Virus record (IMG/VR): IMGVR_UViG_3300007960_000216
Coordinates: 1 to 22,555 of that record
DNA from: a virus
DNA: 22,555 nt
Reading direction: 5' to 3' (one strand)
Positions 4,732 to 21,202 of the stretch are shown here, one piece after another. Made by a program: the position numbers and the translations under genes. A model generated the notes under the pieces. The model was not told the DNA's origin. It saw only the letters and a list, made by a program, of their open reading frames with translations, and did not search any database. Position 1 is the stretch's first letter. The number at the start of each line of letters is the position of its first letter.

Positions 4732-4960
4732 GCTTATCCTCCTCTGGATTATAAGAATATTCTTCTGCGCTTGCTAACATACCTTTAGCTAGCCATGGGT
4801 TCATGTTTTCACTTACATCTGTCATTAGGTATCTTGTACCTTCGAAGTCACTCCACTCGCTAACAAGTACCCAGCCTGTACAAATCTGACTATCAGAATC
4901 ATCTAGCTCTTCTGCTAGTATTCTCATAGCCTTATCTATGGCTTCTGTGAACTTGTTCAC
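4721..4960 (-). CDS. Small acidic hypothetical protein
   Basis: 79 codons with a GTG start that overlaps the stop of the HslV-like gene (GTGA), so it is probably translationally coupled. The protein is acidic. It has an N-terminal helix (FTEAIDKAMRILAEEL), then a probable beta segment around TGWVLVSEWSDFEGTRYLMTD, and a C-terminal helix with MNPWLAKGMLASAEEY. No metal-binding cysteines, signal peptide or membrane segment. I do not recognise a family. The strand pattern with tryptophans suggests a compact alpha/beta fold rather than disorder. It lies between a protease-like gene and structural genes, so a head-assembly or virion role is likely. Confidence 0.7.
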   Translation of the reverse strand: MNKFTEAIDKAMRILAEELDDSDSQICTGWVLVSEWSDFEGTRYLMTDVSENMNPWLAKGMLASAEEYSYNPEEDKRGS

Positions 4961-5502
4961 TTTGGTTGTTCTTCTATTTGGTAGGGGGCTGCTGTGTATG
5001 CACTAACTCTTGCGGCAACTTCCATTGCTGCGAGGGCATCAGCGCCTGCATAAAGAGCGCCAAGTGCGTAAGCACCTCCGCTGCCGATGGCATAGAATCC
5101 TGCTTCACTCTTCATCACCGCCAAGTCTTGGTCGACATCAAAGAGTTCGCCACCAACCGCGATTAGAAATTGGAATCTTAATCCATCTTTATCTTTGTCA
5201 TGAGGTTCATCAAAATTATATCCATTAGTAGTAAGACATTTGCGAAGGGAAGGCATAGCCTTAACTATCATGTAGCGATATGCGTCCTTTTTGTCTTTTG
5301 CTGTGAAAGCTGGAGGTGTCCAGATATTCTGTGCTATATCGCAAGGAGCTACTTCTCCTGCTCCTGCTATTAACAATGCACCACGTGCTGTTATCTTCTT
5401 CATTACCGGGTGTGAATATACCTTACCGCCGTCATCAGTTATCCGGCTGTCTGCAACGATAACTGACTTCTTATCATATTCAACGCCAATGATTGTTGTC
5501 AT
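4957..5502 (-). CDS. HslV/proteasome-beta-like Ntn-hydrolase (threonine peptidase), candidate maturation protease
   Basis: 181 codons starting MTTIIGV. Removal of Met would expose Thr1, the nucleophile of proteasome-fold peptidases. Counting from that Thr, Asp17, Arg19 and Thr21 (ADSRIT) fall exactly where HslV and proteasome beta subunits have D/E17, R19 and T21. A Lys-Lys-Ile at 34-36 fits catalytic Lys33 with a two-residue insertion. The later IGSGGAYALGALYAG matches the HslV Ser129-region signature, and the C-terminal YTAAPYQIEE resembles the HslV end. Length is close to HslV (~175 aa). A strong ribosome site (AGGAGGGG) precedes the ATG. There is no HslU/ClpX-type ATPase nearby. Its place right after the portal gene is where phages usually carry a prohead protease, so a capsid-maturation role is a reasonable inference. 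A defence or host-protein degradation role is also possible. Confidence 0.85.
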   Translation of the reverse strand: MTTIIGVEYDKKSVIVADSRITDDGGKVYSHPVMKKITARGALLIAGAGEVAPCDIAQNIWTPPAFTAKDKKDAYRYMIVKAMPSLRKCLTTNGYNFDEPHDKDKDGLRFQFLIAVGGELFDVDQDLAVMKSEAGFYAIGSGGAYALGALYAGADALAAMEVAARVSAYTAAPYQIEEQPK

Positions 5503-5516
5503 CGTCCCCTCCTGGG

Positions 5517-7286
5517 TTATCTACGTCGAATAGTTCTCACACTAGAGCGGGCTTCGCCAGCTCCGGTTAATCCTGATAATAAACTCATTATATCTGATTG
5601 TCCGCCACCTTGAGGTGTTGGTGGAAGAGCGCCTCCTACCGAAGCGCCAGCGGGAGCAGGGGACGGTTGCTCAACCATTTGTTCAGCAGCTCCAGTAGGA
5701 GGAACCTGTTCCTCAGGGGTAAAGATATCTTCAACGACATCTTCGATTGCCTGTCCCTTTTGGCGAGCTTTAATCACCTTTGCAATCTTCATTACAATCT
5801 CGCTAGCATCGCCACCTTGGGCTGCAATCTGCGGAATTGCCTGAGTGTAAGCCTGTAGAGATGCAAGTAATGCGGTGCGCATATCTTCAATCTCAATCTT
5901 CTCAAGCTCTTGCGTCACATTAACACTGAAAGGAAGTTCTCTCATTGCCATATCGCGGGAGATGAGCTTACCACCTAAGGCTTGCAACATAAATATCAAA
6001 CCTTGGGCTGGATTTAAACCTGCAAGCATGCCGTAGCGCACATCAGCGCTATAGTCATTCTTAATATCTTTTCGTGGACTATATGTAATTTCATACGGTG
6101 CACCAGCATCGACACCACGAATTGTCTTTTCTATCGGGAAAATCTTTTCATCTACTTCAAAACAAATCTGAATAACGTCACGGAGGGCGCTAGCAAAGAT
6201 AGCTTGAGCAGATTTGACCTGGGTATCAAAAGCACCCATGAGAGCCTGAACGCCCTGGCCCGTGATAATCGATGCGTCGATGTTGCCAGTACGTCCTTCA
6301 GGATAACGAGCACCAACACGCAATTCTTGATTAAGTAGTGTTTGCTCAGTGAATGCTCCAGTTGGAAGCGTGAGTTCTACGCGGCGAACGCCGGCAGGGT
6401 TTGAGGTACGTATGACAGCATCTCCACCAAGCTGTAGCTCTTGTACATCTTGTGGGAGTACAATTGGAGACTGTACAGATTTTTCTGCTGCTTCCATTGC
6501 AAGAAGAGCAAAACGATTGCGAAGCAATTGGATACCTAGGATATCATCAAATTGTCCACGGAGCTCACCATCAACGGATGGCTTGCGTGCAATTACTACC
6601 ATCATCTTGCCAAGAGGATTCTTGGCTCGAGAAAGTATTAGATTGCTTTTCTCTGGCATGTAAATTACTGACTGGTCCTTGTCGTAGTAACGAACAACCT
6701 CAGTCATTGAATTCATATCCTGGTCGTAACCATCGCGGCCAAGAAGCTGAGCATCATACTCTGGGAACTGGCTTACCAATTCTCCAAGGGTTAGGTAGTA
6801 GCGCTTTGCAAAAGCAACGCAGCGTCCGTATCTATCAAACTCAGGATAGGCGTGAATTGGATTTTCAAGACGAATGCGTGGTAAGTTAGCTTCTGTGTCT
6901 ATTTCGACGACAAACGGGAGGAACCCGTATGTGATGTACCAGTCAGCACCCGAATACATCTGTACAGATAAGTCACTATGGGCGAAATAATTACTAGCAA
7001 TGCGAGTACGCTTATCAGCAAAAGCTCTAGCTCTGTCGCTCGTTTGATTTGCCGCGGAGCAGTTGACGGCCGGGAGAGGTGCCATAACTTCCGACAAGTC
7101 TCTCGCAACAATATCCACAAAATTTGCAACGACATTAGCATCTACACCATCTGGAAAGAAGTCAGGATATACGGATGAAATCTGTCCTTTACGCACAGCA
7201 AGGACATCTTGGTTTCGTGCGTCCCTGTCTGCATTACGATAGCGCAGCGATTCAACTCGTGCAGCAATCTGTTCAATGGATAACAT
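5517..7286 (-). CDS. Portal protein
   Basis: 589 codons from the ATG of MLSIEQIAARVESL. This start lies just after the terminase stop and has a GGA Shine-Dalgarno overlapping that stop. An in-frame ATG 48 bases upstream lies inside the terminase gene and is less likely. Size, position directly after TerL, an N-terminal helical region, a central beta-rich wing and stem area (RIRLENPIHAYPEFDR, then YYDKDQSVIYMP) and a Gln/Pro/Gly-rich C-terminal tail fit a head-tail connector of the SPP1 gp6/T7 gp8 general type. It would form the dodecameric ring through which TerL packages DNA. The last ~70 residues are Pro/Gly/Ala-rich and end in basic RRR, probably facing DNA or the head interior. Assignment rests on family resemblance and synteny, not on a single diagnostic motif. 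Confidence 0.85.
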   Translation of the reverse strand: MLSIEQIAARVESLRYRNADRDARNQDVLAVRKGQISSVYPDFFPDGVDANVVANFVDIVARDLSEVMAPLPAVNCSAANQTSDRARAFADKRTRIASNYFAHSDLSVQMYSGADWYITYGFLPFVVEIDTEANLPRIRLENPIHAYPEFDRYGRCVAFAKRYYLTLGELVSQFPEYDAQLLGRDGYDQDMNSMTEVVRYYDKDQSVIYMPEKSNLILSRAKNPLGKMMVVIARKPSVDGELRGQFDDILGIQLLRNRFALLAMEAAEKSVQSPIVLPQDVQELQLGGDAVIRTSNPAGVRRVELTLPTGAFTEQTLLNQELRVGARYPEGRTGNIDASIITGQGVQALMGAFDTQVKSAQAIFASALRDVIQICFEVDEKIFPIEKTIRGVDAGAPYEITYSPRKDIKNDYSADVRYGMLAGLNPAQGLIFMLQALGGKLISRDMAMRELPFSVNVTQELEKIEIEDMRTALLASLQAYTQAIPQIAAQGGDASEIVMKIAKVIKARQKGQAIEDVVEDIFTPEEQVPPTGAAEQMVEQPSPAPAGASVGGALPPTPQGGGQSDIMSLLSGLTGAGEARSSVRTIRRR

Positions 7287-7293
7287 TAAGTTC

Positions 7294-9162
7294 CTATCCG
7301 TATGTTTCTTGCCATTGTTCTGAAATGGCTTCATCTAAGTTAATTGCCAGACGGCGTTCCTTCTGAGCTCTGGTAGCCCATCGGTTATTCATCCACCTAG
7401 CTGTATGCGAGTTCTGCTGCATCAATTCTCTTACCCTGATTACAGCAAACCATAGTGCCATAACGCAGTCGCTGGGATTTCTAGAATCAGGTTTCCAGGT
7501 AATCAACTGCTGCACTAAAGCCTTTAAGCCTTCGCTACCTTCATTGCTGGGTAGCTCAATCAGATTGTTATCCTGGAATCTTCCATCTCTAACAGTGCCG
7601 AAAAGACTTGCCATAGAAGCCACACCGAAACTAGTATCCCACTTATTTTTACCAGTGAAGTGAGAGTTGAGCTGACAGCCGTAGGCTGCGAGCCATTGTC
7701 GTAAGTCGTCATCTAAGGCGTAAGCTTTCTGGTGAGCATTTATTTCTATTCGTAATTCCTGAGGACGGTATTTCTCAACCCAGTCCTCAATCAAATCTCT
7801 AATCTTCATTGGACTTGGCTCAGTCATGTTGACTGCATCCAGCACATAAATCATACCGTCTACTCGGTTATAAGTCAAGACCACCGCTGCCGTGTTCCCC
7901 GTCATCGCAGGGTCTAGACCAATAACCGTATATGAGGATTCTAGGTTCTTGGGGTGGCCTGCAGCGCCTGGTTTAAGCGGTCCGCGCTTTCGCATACCGT
8001 TAACACATCCTGCAACTGCTGTTGGCGAGAATATGCTATCTTCGACGACATCTTCTTGTTGGTAGACCATCGCCCAAACAGACGGGGCAACCTCGCTTCG
8101 ACGCGTGAAAAGAGAAGGGCCGTCCCACTTGGGGTATAGTCCTTGTTCATTTGGTTCATCTTTATCGCCCTCGGGGCTATCGGTATATGGCCAGAGAGTT
8201 TTCCAACTTGCTGGCTTCTCGTCAAATTCTAATACTGCCGGCTGGGCAAAGTATGTAAAGGGGCTTTTGCCACCGGTCCATTGTTGACCGTCCCGTATCA
8301 TCTTATACAAGTCAACGGGTGCAACACGGGTCCCTACAATAAGCAGTTTCCCGTGTCGACCCAAACGCGTGATAACTTCTTTCTGAAGCCATTCAATTTG
8401 CTTCTCCCACTCATGGGCATTGGAGTTCATCACGACATCATCTAGGATAATCAAGTCAGCACGGGCACCATAAATCTGGCTACCAAAGCCGAGGGCTTGA
8501 ACGGAGGGGTCCTTTTCGCCGGAGTCCCTACCAGTACCTAGGTAAATCATATCGGCGCTCCATGTCTGGGAGTCAGCCTTATATCCTCCATTAGGGCCAA
8601 AGGCCGTCTGGAGCTTTATCCAATTGGGGTGGGAAAGCCTTGTCTTGATAGCGCTAAGAAACTTTCGGGCCATGCCCTGGGTCTTAGAGACAAGGATGAT
8701 TCTAACATTCGGATTAGTCGCCAGCATATAGGTCACGTAGTTAATCGTGATTACTGTCGACTTAGCATGCTCGGGGGGTACGTTAATCAGGACTCGGTTA
8801 GCCGCCCCTGGCTCGTATGTCATCGCCGGGTGAAGCCACTGGGGCTCGCGCCCCTCAATCAAATCTATCCAGTCCCTATGATGGTCAAAGAGCTGGGTGT
8901 CTAGAAACTGGGTCGAGAAGTCCTCAAAGCCAATCTCCTTGATATTCTTCAAGTCGGCCTTGATGCCCTTACCTTCTAGGCGGGCCGTATCGGCCCTTTC
9001 CTTGAACTCAGTATCCTTCATAGACCATTGCCTGAAGGTTACATCGTTTCGGTTAACCGAGGCCATAGCCTGGGTAATAGTCGCCCCCTGGGCTAGCTGG
9101 AGTAGGACACGCTCTTTGGCCTCAGCCATAGGGATGTCCACCTTGCCAGGCTTTCTACCCAT
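7294..9162 (-). CDS. terL: Terminase large subunit (TerL) with N-terminal HTH-like extension
   Basis: 622 codons with a GGGGGA ribosome site five bases before the ATG. Residues ~10-70 (ATITQAMASVNRNDVTFRQW) look like a helix-turn-helix unit of the type found in small terminase subunits. The ATPase core follows: Walker A PPEHAKST at 129-136, Walker B LIILDD at 237-242 and a coupling motif around VGTRVAP at 276-282. The nuclease domain (RNase H fold) begins near 412, with Asp417 in IGLDPAM, Glu473 in RIEINAH and a late Asp in NPSDCVM. It packages DNA into the prohead with the portal encoded next. No separate small terminase is seen in the window, so the N-terminal extension may take over DNA recognition. 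It is the first gene of the leftward operon and lies next to the long control region. Confidence 0.95.
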   Translation of the reverse strand: MGRKPGKVDIPMAEAKERVLLQLAQGATITQAMASVNRNDVTFRQWSMKDTEFKERADTARLEGKGIKADLKNIKEIGFEDFSTQFLDTQLFDHHRDWIDLIEGREPQWLHPAMTYEPGAANRVLINVPPEHAKSTVITINYVTYMLATNPNVRIILVSKTQGMARKFLSAIKTRLSHPNWIKLQTAFGPNGGYKADSQTWSADMIYLGTGRDSGEKDPSVQALGFGSQIYGARADLIILDDVVMNSNAHEWEKQIEWLQKEVITRLGRHGKLLIVGTRVAPVDLYKMIRDGQQWTGGKSPFTYFAQPAVLEFDEKPASWKTLWPYTDSPEGDKDEPNEQGLYPKWDGPSLFTRRSEVAPSVWAMVYQQEDVVEDSIFSPTAVAGCVNGMRKRGPLKPGAAGHPKNLESSYTVIGLDPAMTGNTAAVVLTYNRVDGMIYVLDAVNMTEPSPMKIRDLIEDWVEKYRPQELRIEINAHQKAYALDDDLRQWLAAYGCQLNSHFTGKNKWDTSFGVASMASLFGTVRDGRFQDNNLIELPSNEGSEGLKALVQQLITWKPDSRNPSDCVMALWFAVIRVRELMQQNSHTARWMNNRWATRAQKERRLAINLDEAISEQWQETYG

Positions 9163-9218: not shown

Positions 9219-9250
9219 ATTATATATATTATTATATATATTATTATATA
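9219..9250 (-). promoter_or_regulatory. AT-only tract with candidate late promoter for the terL operon
   Basis: A run of TATATAAT/TATTAT units lies 60-90 bases before the terL start. On the minus strand it offers several TATAAT hexamers. For the upstream-most one (9243-9248) a TTTGTT sits 16 bases away, which is a poor -35. The tract strongly resembles the AT run at 21082-21180 in the other control region. It could equally be a DNA-unwinding element. The promoter call is weak. Confidence 0.35.
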
Positions 9251-9284
9251 GGAGCTTGCGTAGGAACAAACCGGAGCAAGCTCC
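9251..9284. terminator. Perfect 9-bp hairpin, possible terminator or insulator
   Basis: GGAGCTTGC (9251-9259) pairs perfectly with GCAAGCTCC (9276-9284) across a 16-base loop. AT-rich DNA flanks it on both sides, so it could act in either direction. It sits between the presumed late promoter area and the iterons. Confidence 0.45.
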
Positions 9285-9285
9285 G

Positions 9286-9309
9286 TATATGTAATTATTA
9301 TTACATATA
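9286..9309. repeat. AT-rich palindrome with 10-bp arms
   Basis: TATATGTAAT (9286-9295) and ATTACATATA (9300-9309) are exact inverted copies around a four-base centre. This could be a protein-binding dyad or a cruciform-prone site. It directly follows the hairpin ending at 9284. Confidence 0.5.
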
Positions 9310-9313
9310 TAGA

Positions 9314-9360
9314 AAACCTGTTCATTTCTGGAAACCGAACAGGTTTCCTTAATATATTTT
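9314..9360 (+). terminator. Intrinsic-type terminator hairpin
   Basis: AAACCTGTTC (9314-9323) pairs perfectly with GAACAGGTTT (9337-9346), a 10-bp stem with a 13-base loop. On the plus strand it is followed by an A/T-rich stretch ending in a run of five T (9356-9360). No plus-strand gene precedes it, so it may stop leftover rightward or antisense transcription. Confidence 0.45.
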
Positions 9361-9404: not shown

Positions 9405-9462
9405 ATTTCTGGGGGGCTTATAACAGAAATTTTTGGGGTGAGACATAAAATCTTATAAGCCC
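9405..9462. repeat. Two overlapping, mutually exclusive inverted repeats
   Basis: ATTTCTG (9405-9411) pairs with CAGAAAT (9424-9430). Independently, GGGCTTATAA (9414-9423) pairs with TTATAAGCCC (9453-9462). The left arm of the second repeat lies in the loop of the first, so in RNA only one could be fully stable if tertiary clashes matter. A direct repeat, ATAAGCCYGCG, follows at about 9455 and 9471. This geometry resembles attenuator switches, but no leader peptide is seen. Confidence 0.5.
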
Positions 9463-9552
9463 GCGATTTAATAAGCCTGCGGTCAAAGTTTCCTGAGTGC
9501 TTCCTGAGTGTATCCTGAGAGCCTGACGGCTCATGGTTCCTGAGAATTACCT

Positions 9553-9569
9553 GAGAGCCTATGGCTCTC
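9553..9569. repeat. Perfect hairpin within the iteron array
   Basis: GAGAGCC-TAT-GGCTCTC is a seven-base-pair stem with a three-base loop. It begins inside the iteron at 9550 and ends just before the first SOS-type box. A smaller sister hairpin, GAGCC-TGAC-GGCTC, lies at 9519-9532. Confidence 0.55.
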
Positions 9570-9585
9570 TAGAACATTTGTTCTA
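9570..9585. promoter_or_regulatory. SOS/LexA-type operator 1
   Basis: TAGAACATTTGTTCTA contains GAAC-N4-GTTC, the core of the LexA box of Gram-positive bacteria and actinobacteria, inside a 16-bp dyad with seven-base perfect arms. It lies in the gap between iteron clusters. Either host LexA or a phage repressor with similar specificity could bind. Confidence 0.65.
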
Positions 9586-9678
9586 ATTTATAAACTGAGA
9601 ATTATCTGAGTTATTCCTGAAAGTTTTCTGAGTGAGTGACTATCCCCCCGCCACCTATCGGGCGTGTGGCGTAGGTCA

Positions 9679-9694
9679 TAGAACAAGTGTTCTA
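9679..9694. promoter_or_regulatory. SOS/LexA-type operator 2
   Basis: TAGAACAAGTGTTCTA is a second GAAC-N4-GTTC palindrome. It shares the outer TAGAACA and TGTTCTA arms with operator 1, 109 bp away. It is one base from the CRP-type box at 9696. Two near-identical palindromes argue for a true operator pair. Confidence 0.7.
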
Positions 9695-9695
9695 A

Positions 9696-9711
9696 TGTGA
9701 ATCGTGTCACA
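9696..9711. promoter_or_regulatory. CRP-type box 1
   Basis: TGTGA-N6-TCACA is an exact match to the consensus of CRP-family regulators, including actinobacterial Crp and GlxR. It directly follows SOS-type operator 2. Its right half is shared with another dyad, CACAAT-N6-ATTGTG (9708-9725). It lies about 33 bases upstream of the TTGACA at 9737, a spacing compatible with activation. Confidence 0.65.
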
Positions 9712-9809: not shown

Positions 9810-9825
9810 TGTGACGCACTTCACA
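9810..9825. promoter_or_regulatory. CRP-type box 2
   Basis: TGTGA-CGCACT-TCACA is a second exact match to the CRP-family consensus, 114 bp from box 1. Both boxes are followed by AT, giving a shared TCACAAT right end. If transcription starts near 9772, this box lies downstream of the start and could act by repression or looping. Confidence 0.65.
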
Positions 9826-10224: not shown

Positions 10225-10509
10225 ATGGTTCGTAATGTCAGAGTACGCAAAGCATGGAAGCGCCAAACCGCGAAGGTGGCGTTCCCTGTGACGATTACCA
10301 AACCAAACGGCGAAACCTTCACGATAGCGCCCACGCCCAAGCGTGTCGCTAAGCGTAAGACAACCACCAAGCACACGCCCAAGCGTGTCGCTAAACTCCC
10401 CACGCCCGCCCAAGATAATCGGGCGATAGCACTAGAAGAACGCAAGAGAGCGTTCGCTGAAAGCCAACGCGCATTAGAATTAGAGATGCGTGGCGGTTCA
10501 TACAATTAG
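10225..10509 (+). CDS. Small highly basic protein with TPKRVAK repeats
   Basis: 94 codons with an AGAGAGGA ribosome site about eight bases before the ATG. The first ~60 residues are strongly basic and hold two copies of TPKRVAK, encoded by two 20-bp direct repeats (10333-10352 and 10375-10394; 42 bp apart). A PTPAQDN linker follows, then a charged C-terminal helix (IALEERKRAFAESQRALELEMR). This composition suggests a nucleic-acid-binding or nucleoid-type protein with a helical oligomerisation tail. There is no recognisable family domain. It is the first gene of the rightward operon, behind the long structured leader, so it may be an early regulator or chromatin-like factor. Confidence 0.75.
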   Translation: MVRNVRVRKAWKRQTAKVAFPVTITKPNGETFTIAPTPKRVAKRKTTTKHTPKRVAKLPTPAQDNRAIALEERKRAFAESQRALELEMRGGSYN

Positions 10510-11306: not shown

Positions 11307-12530
11307 ATGTCAGAAGAAGCAGAAGTAGAAGTCGGTACATGTATCTCATGCTCAACAGAGTATCCGATAGATGAACTAAATACCACAGAGGATAGCGACC
11401 TTGTATGCTCGGATTGTATCCAATCATGCGAGCGTTGCGGTATGGTAGGCACAAGTGATTACAGTTGGTATTCGGTAGATGATGAATCATGGTGCGAGCA
11501 TTGTTGGGAAAACGATTCCTTCCATTGTACTCGTTGCGAATACACCTACAATAGCAACAGGGTAGAGTATAGCATAGTACGCGGTAATAGTTGGAACGAG
11601 TCGTGGTGTGAGCATTGTATAAGTGACTATGCCACCTATTGTGACAACTGTAATGAATACTATGCTGACGATAGTGGCGAGTGCCCACAATGCGAGGGTA
11701 ATGGTGCGGGTAATGTCCATAATTATTCGCACAAGCCTAACCCTGTATTTCATGGTAGCGCACCGACCAACCTATTCATGGGCTTTGAGTTAGAGATGGA
11801 ACTCAACTCAATAGGTAGTGCTGAGTATCGTGAAGCGGTAGCCGGTGTCACAGAGTTAGAGTCTGATAGTGTATGCTATCTCAAGTCTGACTCAAGCATA
11901 CACGGCACGGGCTTTGAGCTAGTCACACACCCGCATACTCTCGGTGCTTATGAGCAAGCCGACAAGTTGTGGGAATACATAGAATTACTACGCACCCAAT
12001 ACAGAGCGCGTAGTTATGACACCGATTCATGTGGGCTACATGTCCATGTATCTCGGAGTGCGTTCAAGTCGGGCGCACATACTCACCGATTCCTCTCCTT
12101 GATTTACAAGAATCCTAAGGAGATGATGAAACTAGCAGGGCGTAAGAACTCTCGCTACGCACAATTCTCTGATGTCTATAAGCCTGATGAATGGGGTATC
12201 CCACGATTCAACTTACACGACAAGATACATGCTGGCTTCCGTACCGAGCGTTATAGCGCGGTCAATACCGGCAACGATTACACACTAGAATTGCGCTTCT
12301 TCCGTGGCAACATGAAGCGCGAGGGCGTTATGTCTGCCCTAGAATTGTGCCACGCTTCGGTAGAATACACTCGTGACATGAGCGTGTCTGATGTCAAGTT
12401 AGGTATGCTCAAGTGGGAGTGGTTCGCCGATTGGGTAGAAGCCAACAATGGTGTCTATCCTAACCTATACTTGCGCATGTCCAAAGTGCCAAGTGTATCT
12501 CTTGATAACCGACCACTAATCAACGCTTAG
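11307..12530 (+). CDS. GS-like amidoligase with N-terminal zinc ribbons
   Basis: 407 codons. Residues 12-129 hold a string of Cys pairs (C12/15, C34/37, C41/44, WCEHC at 62-66, C74/77, WCEHC at 100-104, C112/115, C126/129), probably several zinc ribbons. The second part matches the putative amidoligase family related to glutamine synthetase (carboxylate-amine ligase): GFELEME at 159-165, a central GTGFELVTHP at 200-209, SCGLHVHVSR at 241-250 and LELRFFRGN at 327-335. These supply the acidic and His residues for ATP/metal and substrate binding. Family members are thought to join an amine to a carboxylate using ATP. A glutamine amidotransferase gene follows ten bases later and could supply ammonia. 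The substrate (a host protein, peptide or cell-wall precursor) cannot be read from the sequence. Confidence 0.85.
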   Translation: MSEEAEVEVGTCISCSTEYPIDELNTTEDSDLVCSDCIQSCERCGMVGTSDYSWYSVDDESWCEHCWENDSFHCTRCEYTYNSNRVEYSIVRGNSWNESWCEHCISDYATYCDNCNEYYADDSGECPQCEGNGAGNVHNYSHKPNPVFHGSAPTNLFMGFELEMELNSIGSAEYREAVAGVTELESDSVCYLKSDSSIHGTGFELVTHPHTLGAYEQADKLWEYIELLRTQYRARSYDTDSCGLHVHVSRSAFKSGAHTHRFLSLIYKNPKEMMKLAGRKNSRYAQFSDVYKPDEWGIPRFNLHDKIHAGFRTERYSAVNTGNDYTLELRFFRGNMKREGVMSALELCHASVEYTRDMSVSDVKLGMLKWEWFADWVEANNGVYPNLYLRMSKVPSVSLDNRPLINA

Positions 12531-12540
12531 GGGGTGTTAT

Positions 12541-13455
12541 ATGTGTCTATTAGTTGTCTGTAAGCCTGGTGCTACACCAAAGCACGAGGAACTTACAGAG
12601 GGCGCGTGTGCTAATCCGCACGGCTATGGGTTCGCCATGGTAATTGACGGCAAGATTTTCCGCTATCGTACCATGTCTGCTCGTAAAGCCGTGTCCAAGT
12701 TTATCCACATGCGCCAACAAAATCCTCACGGCTATGCTATTTGGCATGCCCGTTATGCTACGCATGGCGTAAAGAACGAGGATAACTGTCACCCGTTCCA
12801 AGTGGGTGACGATACTGATACAGTACTAGCGCACAATGGTGTGCTAGATACTTTCATAGGGAAAGATGATAAGCGTAGCGATACGCGTATCTTCGCAGAG
12901 GATACCTTGCCTAAACTCGGCGGGGTATGTGCTTTGGAAGATGAGAATCTGTACCGCATGGTTGAAGGGTGGGCTTCGGGTAGTAAGATAGCCGTGCTCA
13001 CGACCAACCCTAACGCCCAGTACCAGTTGTATCTAATCAACGAGCGACTCGGTACATGGGACGACAATGGTGTATGGTGGAGTAATTCCTCGTACAAGCG
13101 GAATACCTACTCGTACAAGGATTACTACAAGTCAGACACCAAGCCCGCCACTACCACTATACATGAGTCAGACTACGCCGAGGAGCAGAAGCATTATGAA
13201 GAACTCCTTGACGCGCTAGATGAGCAAGTCACCATAGACATGTGCCCCTCATGCGAAGCCCTCATTGACATAGATAGGTCAGCAGAGTACTGCCAGTACT
13301 GTGACTGCTGTATGTCATGCTACGCCACATGGCAGGATTGTATGTGCTACACACCAGCAAGCGCACGCAAGCCCTACTCCAATGACTTTGACAATCATTG
13401 GGTAAGAGTGTATAATAAACACAACACAACTGAACACTTGAACTTGATTTACTAA
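12541..13455 (+). CDS. Class II glutamine amidotransferase (Ntn) with C-terminal Cys-rich ribbon
   Basis: 304 codons with a TAGGGGGTG ribosome site. The protein begins Met-Cys, so Met removal exposes the Cys2 nucleophile of class II amidotransferases. HGYGFAMV (27-34), WHARYATHG (68-76, glutamine-binding Arg) and AHNG (97-100, oxyanion-hole Asn/Gly) fit the family. A bulk-fold region to ~residue 170 is followed by a Ser/Thr/Tyr-rich linker and a C-terminal cluster with CPSC, CQYCDCC, SCYATWQDCMC, probably one or two zinc sites. It would release ammonia from glutamine for the amidoligase encoded just before. No synthase or phosphoribosyl domain is attached, so it is not PurF, GltB or GlmS. A perfect promoter for the next genes lies inside its 3' end. 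Confidence 0.85.
   Translation: MCLLVVCKPGATPKHEELTEGACANPHGYGFAMVIDGKIFRYRTMSARKAVSKFIHMRQQNPHGYAIWHARYATHGVKNEDNCHPFQVGDDTDTVLAHNGVLDTFIGKDDKRSDTRIFAEDTLPKLGGVCALEDENLYRMVEGWASGSKIAVLTTNPNAQYQLYLINERLGTWDDNGVWWSNSSYKRNTYSYKDYYKSDTKPATTTIHESDYAEEQKHYEELLDALDEQVTIDMCPSCEALIDIDRSAEYCQYCDCCMSCYATWQDCMCYTPASARKPYSNDFDNHWVRVYNKHNTTEHLNLIY
13388..13416 (+). promoter_or_regulatory. Consensus sigma70 promoter (TTGACA-N17-TATAAT)
   Basis: Both hexamers are perfect and the spacer is 17 bases. It lies in the last codons of the amidotransferase gene, with an expected start near 13423, and would drive the block 13478-15524 that includes whiB. Confidence 0.75.
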
Positions 13456-21058: not shown

Positions 21059-21087
21059 TTGACATATGTTCTTTCTTAGTATATAAT
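21059..21087 (+). promoter_or_regulatory. Consensus plus-strand promoter (TTGACA-N17-TATAAT)
   Basis: Perfect hexamers and spacer. It points right, where no plus-strand gene exists. The transcript would meet the hairpin at 21109-21127 after about 15 bases and the larger terminator at 21228-21285 if it reads on, so a small non-coding RNA is likely. Confidence 0.65.
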
Positions 21088-21108
21088 ATATATTATATAT
21101 AATATATA

Positions 21109-21127
21109 AAGACCCCGTAGGGGTCTT
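21109..21127. terminator. Bidirectional hairpin between facing promoters
   Basis: AAGACCCC-GTA-GGGGTCTT has an eight-base-pair perfect stem, with A/T-only DNA on both sides. The same AAGACCCC/GGGGTCTT stem bases recur in the terminator at 21228-21285. Confidence 0.6.
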
Positions 21128-21180
21128 ATAATATATATATTATTATATATATATTATATATTATATTATATATATTATAC
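21128..21180. repeat. AT-only tract
   Basis: About 50 bases with almost no G or C, built of TATATTAT/TATATA units like the tract before terL. A candidate DNA-unwinding element or spacer between promoters. No gene is present between 21010 and 21359. Confidence 0.6.
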
Positions 21181-21202
21181 TGACTGAAGGAGAAGCAGTC
21201 AA
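21174..21202 (-). promoter_or_regulatory. Minus-strand promoter upstream of the replication operon
   Basis: TTGACT (21197-21202), 17-base spacer, TATAAT (21174-21179). It would transcribe left through the hairpin at 21109-21127 toward the nuclease gene, so it may be an attenuated second promoter. It faces the plus-strand promoter at 21059. Confidence 0.6.

Follow-up and report, generated by a model that had tools for sequence, protein, structure and literature searches.

To our knowledge, the way in which phages with direct terminal repeats (DTR) choose and cut their genome ends is poorly understood. In T7, a DTR phage, arrays of short direct repeats, SRL and SRR, adjoin the terminal repetition, and we know of no rule for their orientation relative to the cut site. 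In lambda, the R-sites of cosB are repeated sites bound by the small terminase TerS, and they adjoin the cut site. Clustered 11-bp direct repeats that are bound cooperatively are also found in the parC centromeres of ParR systems, such as that of plasmid R1, and iterons next to a fixed site are typical of replication origins. The pac sites of SPP1 and SF6 contain direct-repeat boxes bound by TerS; these repeats matter little for the affinity of the SF6 DNA-binding domain (PMC4737164).

We compared our locus with the genomes of the Streptomyces Beephvirinae phages FlowerPower, Immanuel3, and WRightOn, which, as deposited, carry identical repeats of 253, 275, and 264 bp, respectively, at both ends. 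Literature searches for DTRs in Beephvirinae or for 11-bp terminase repeats found nothing among the papers covered. The locus lies in a 22,555-base IMG/VR virus fragment (IMGVR_UViG_3300007960_000216), hereafter the window, that is, the whole stretch of DNA analyzed. Its large terminase subunit, TerL, is about 45% identical to those of Beephvirinae and 79% identical to those of its freshwater kin LanE43-AprE7 and AprF5 (E7 and F5), two cultured 'Ca. Planktophila' phages (PMC10202952). The terL gene (7294-9162, minus strand, 622 aa; phrog_38, E 7e-68; PF17289) is followed in the same leftward direction by genes for a portal (5517-7334), an HslV-like peptidase (4957-5502), and a 1422-aa protein cut by the window edge. 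On the other side, the first rightward gene (10225-10509, plus strand) encodes a 94-aa basic protein for which no family match was found, and further rightward genes encode an amidoligase, a glutamine amidotransferase-like protein, and a WhiB-like protein. The amidoligase and class-II glutamine amidotransferase-like genes lie side by side (11307-13455); the pair is absent from E7/F5 and from a few relatives. Farther right, the genes run leftward again and encode a sigma-like factor, a primase, RusA, a DnaB-like helicase, an RNR-like protein, and an exonuclease. Near these replication genes, a gene-poor stretch carries long TATAT-rich inverted repeats (21080-21190) that might serve as an origin or a terminator.

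An array of CTGAG repeats lies between terL and the 94-aa gene, in a divergent intergenic region of 1.06 kb. An earlier note had counted nine CTGAG iterons; eight are exact, starting at 9493, 9504, 9515, 9540, 9551, 9595, 9606, and 9628, and the ninth, previously placed at 9616, is a degenerate CTGAA at 9617. The steps of 11, 11 / 25 / 11 / 44 / 11, 11, 11 bp agreed with that note, but each of its positions was one base too low. Read on the plus strand, the units form three clusters: three CTGAG-headed 11-bp units (9493-9525), two such units (9540-9561), and four units including the degenerate one (9595-9638). Clusters 2 and 3 share a common 11-bp register, from which cluster 1 is shifted by 3. 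CTGAG is not enriched over the whole window (45 found versus 50 expected). Chance had already been judged an unlikely source of the phasing, and indeed the four step-11 pairs and eight copies within 140 bp were not matched in any of 1000 dinucleotide shuffles of this intergenic sequence; the test covered every 5-mer at all steps between 7 and 24 and gave shuffle maxima of two pairs and six copies.

Conservation in close relatives was the point on which the note had staked its proposal, and both the repeats and their spacing are kept. We took 80 TerL relatives from IMG/VR and pooled them with other loci, which yielded 102 dereplicated upstream regions. Upstream of terL, 54 of these have an 11-bp CTGAG array in either orientation. 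Within arrays, copies were mostly 11 bp apart (120 pairs) or separated by a multiple of that step (71 pairs at 22 and 24 at 33), and the unit consensus is CTGAGaGTTTC, with a constant CTGAG core, six variable spacer bases, interrupted clusters, and a copy number that differs among relatives. The three-copy pattern occurs in 23 of 35 related records, mostly in one intergenic neighborhood per genome. When IMG/VR was scanned for three CTGAG at 11-bp steps, at least 118 loci were found, and about 39 of the matches listed belong to this phage family (45 assigned by script minus 6 with distant TerL similarity alone), against 2 of the 120 matches listed in a control scan at 10-bp steps; both figures are to be read as proportions of a sample. 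The proposed phasing to a single face of the DNA is borne out inside clusters, while in relatives the phase frequently changes from one cluster to the next. We also considered a host genome as the source of the array and rejected it: the matches listed in a four-copy scan were unrelated minisatellites and chance matches.

The same intergenic region contains other elements. GAAC-N4-GTTC palindromes similar to the LexA (SOS) boxes of actinobacteria lie at 9572-9583 and 9681-9692 and recur around this place in relatives; upstream of terL, two relatives (L010 and L024) have Fur/Zur-like AATGATTATCATT palindromes where others have these boxes. CRP/GlxR-like TGTGA-N6-TCACA palindromes lie at 9696-9711 and 9810-9825, and in some relatives the spacing between such boxes and a TTGACA-N17-TATAAT promoter is constant. 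The stretch from terL to the predicted DTR edge described below also holds, at 9240-9350, two hairpins that look conserved, GGAGCTTGC...GCAAGCTCC and AAACCTGTTC...GAACAGGTTT.

Cluster 3 abuts a GACTATC site and is in register with it. A position weight matrix located the conserved GACTATCCCCC site across relatives, with a usable site in 87 loci; in the window, this site corresponds to GACTATCCCCCC at 9638-9649 (GGGGGGATAGTC on the TerL strand). Sorting the repeats by side of this site revealed an asymmetry. Phased copies numbered 163 CTGAG and 0 CTCAG on the TerL side, against 11 CTGAG and 89 CTCAG on the far side. Counting all copies, phased or not, gave 199 versus 5 on the TerL side and 11 versus 94 on the far side, compared with 14 CTGAG and 18 CTCAG in control sequence farther out. 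Thus, copies aim at the site from either side. Distance was constrained as well: on the TerL side, 64 of the 70 copies lying within 60 bp of the site were at 12 + 11n (±1) bp from it, and the nearest copy was exactly 12 bp away in 18 loci. The window obeys this register (9628 to 9640); the register of outside copies to the site is looser.

The side occupied by the array has switched repeatedly. On a TerL tree from which the helix-turn-helix (HTH) had been left out, parsimony required at least 6 changes for inside arrays and at least 13 for outside arrays, and orientation followed the side in nearly all cases. The sister loci L049 and L062, for instance, have their main phased arrays on opposite sides and in opposite orientation, and three loci (L004, L104, and L105) have arrays both inside and outside. 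Only three loci, L205, L227, and L258, break the orientation rule.

What the site might be was suggested by homology with the Beephvirinae DTR phages, which have a gene order like that of the window family. We built an nhmmer model of the conserved block lying between array and terL in 89 freshwater relatives and searched 233 kb of Streptomyces phage DNA, including two complete genomes. All six matches, in four Streptomyces phages, fell at the inner DTR boundary or at its other-end copy. The E-values are individually weak (0.007-4.2), and the result carries weight because the matches coincide in position in all four phages. In the window, the block (9419-9447, minus strand; TATGTCTCACCCCAAAAATTTCTGTTATA on the TerL strand) is the predicted inner edge of a terminal repeat, near 9443/9444. 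The GACTATC/GATAGTC site would then be the left genome terminus, with a predicted cut near 9640/9641, and the whole array would lie inside a predicted direct terminal repeat of about 197 bp (9444-9640). At the left boundary, the likeness is weak: the Streptomyces repeats begin with GTCCC, with AGTCCC following the repeat, and freshwater and Streptomyces phages have the short A|GTC motif alone in common. Contig starts gave a suggestive hint of a terminus: five lie up to 27 bp outside the site, the following 130 bp contain none, and a further three contigs or stretches start at the site itself. As expected of terminase-binding sites, the repeats are associated with, and oriented to, the predicted cut site.

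Other lines of enquiry were less fruitful. The two boundary sites did not covary within genomes (mean longest common substring of 4.92, versus 4.93 for shuffled pairing). Overlaps between contig ends were dropped as proof of DTRs, as they were just 127/99-bp k-mer overlaps, that is, assembly artefacts. The assembly ends show k-mer overlaps alone, and so the physical ends of the freshwater phages, including DTR-type ends at these sites in the window phage, are predicted ones. A lambda-type cos site, an idea prompted by the location of terL near the genome end in Streptomyces phages, was dropped in view of the identical terminal repeats there.

A candidate reader of the array is TerL itself. Its first ~66 residues gave weak Pfam matches to HTH_23 and to the Sf6 small-terminase family. 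An AlphaFold2 model of residues 1-110 had a mean pLDDT of 77, rising to ~84 in the HTH, and its best structural match was the Sf6 TerS structure 3hef (Z 8.0 over 59 residues, 2.3 Å), the next unrelated match being at Z 2.1; among structural matches to viral models, many were annotated as TerS. We therefore delineate a putative TerS-like HTH domain at residues 8-66 (8965-9141, minus strand). Across 20 records, PF20901 matched the TerL of E7/F5 only, below the curated cut-off, PF03592 matched nowhere, and profile matches revealed no separate TerS gene; a sequence search of the TerL N-terminus against the PDB gave no meaningful match. The predicted fold supports a TerS-like domain fused to TerL, and a divergent separate TerS is possible too. 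We also tried the HTH sequence as a predictor of the array and abandoned it, as near-identical N-termini occur with and without an array. Because of this failure, binding of the array by the TerL HTH is put forward as a hypothesis, for which we would give somewhat less than an even chance. The little sequence specificity with which SF6 TerS DNA-binding domains bind pac calls for the same caution (PMC4737164).

Of the three roles offered by the earlier note (origin of replication, regulator array, or packaging site), packaging fits best: arrays aim at one conserved site, the block beside them shares homology with a DTR inner edge, and TerL has a TerS-like domain. We consider it probable that this is a DTR-type (T7-like) actinophage whose terminase recognizes the array as one element of the signal for packaging and terminus processing. 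The phage would form concatemers, and a terminase carrying its own N-terminal TerS-like HTH in the large subunit would bind the 11-bp direct repeats with a subunit on every turn of the helix to give a directional complex. Because the array is in register with the GACTATC/GATAGTC site and points at it, this complex would place the nuclease there. A second cut ~200 bp inward, at the TCTCACCC-AAAATTTCTGTTATA block, would produce the direct terminal repeat and leave the array inside it at both genome ends.

Such a signal would have partial counterparts in known systems. Beephvirinae have a related TerL, a similar gene order, and the homologous inner block, and FlowerPower even has short phased repeats inside its DTR (ATGTC at 10-bp steps); in contrast, their repeat motif and spacing are different, they have no CTGAG array, and their DTR measures ~253-275 bp versus the ~200 bp predicted here. 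With SPP1/SF6 pac, the locus would share direct repeats beside a cleavage site, predicted in our case, and an HTH small terminase, but those phages package by the headful mechanism, with few boxes of other spacing and a separate TerS gene. Repeated terminase-binding sites by a cut site, both predicted here, recall lambda cosB, where packaging is of the cohesive-end type and the R-sites are longer, fewer, and not known to be helix-phased at 11 bp. The repeats of T7 differ in their unit and lie outside rather than inside the terminal repeat.

The strongest rival explanation is a regulator array, in which a phage or host transcription factor would bind the head-to-tail 11-bp direct repeats and control divergent late (terL) and early (94-aa) promoters. 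It ranks so because the intergenic region also has well-conserved operator-like palindromes and promoter-like sequences: TGTGA-N6-TCACA boxes are present at 61 of the 102 loci, in the same intergenic region as the array, GAAC-N4-GTTC palindromes occur near the array, and TTGACA-N17-TATAAT promoters are found at part of the loci. These phages also encode sigma-like and WhiB-like proteins. Nevertheless, the orientation and register of the array follow a GC-rich, non-promoter site and flip with its side, and no gene family tracked the presence of the array among 26 genomes, so that we regard regulation as unlikely. The array is moreover missing in about a third of relatives, a dispensability that suits a regulator and speaks against a replication origin at which an initiator bound to the iterons would open or nick the DNA at the nearby site. 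The intergenic location of the array, at a single place in most genomes, would suit an origin. Yet the helicase, primase, and exonuclease genes are ~8-11 kb away, no initiator family was recognized, and the site is a G/C run rather than an AT-rich opening element; we hold this explanation to be quite improbable.

The array might also be a neutral 11-bp minisatellite expanding and decaying in an unconstrained spacer. Ordinary CTGAG-containing 11-bp minisatellites do exist in bacterial genomes, and copy number does differ between relatives. However, the CTGAG core is constant while the six spacer bases vary, the clusters are interrupted, and slippage would give neither the orientation rule nor the register. 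This reading is disfavored, and we give it hardly any credence. As to the ParR/parC centromeres, no partition gene pair was recognized among the window genes scanned, and the array here, unlike parC, is tied to a terminus-like site.

The main difficulty for recognition by the terminase is that the array is not present in all phages sharing the enzyme: 31 of 84 relatives lack it, including both cultured phages, E7 and F5, which retain the boundary sites; terL is kept in these relatives and the boundary sites mostly so. Some of the array-less relatives bear other short phased repeats, for example, CGACATAT at 8 bp, and for this reason the array may either enhance cutting or provide a specificity that other elements can supply in its place. 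A more specific and rather doubtful version is that a single-protein terminase (TerS-like HTH-TerL) reads a polarized, helix-phased array that can sit on either side of the terminus provided that it points at it. The array would then be a directional ruler setting the cut in the concatemer, and lineages would gain, lose, and flip it.

The relatives form a natural comparative system for terminase positioning: the array may be inside, outside, on both sides, or missing, and it keeps to a strong rule of orientation and a fixed register. The analysis also yields predicted genome termini for a group of freshwater actinophages that is abundant and little cultured, and the modeled N-terminus of their TerL suggests that, in this group, a TerS domain may be fused to TerL.
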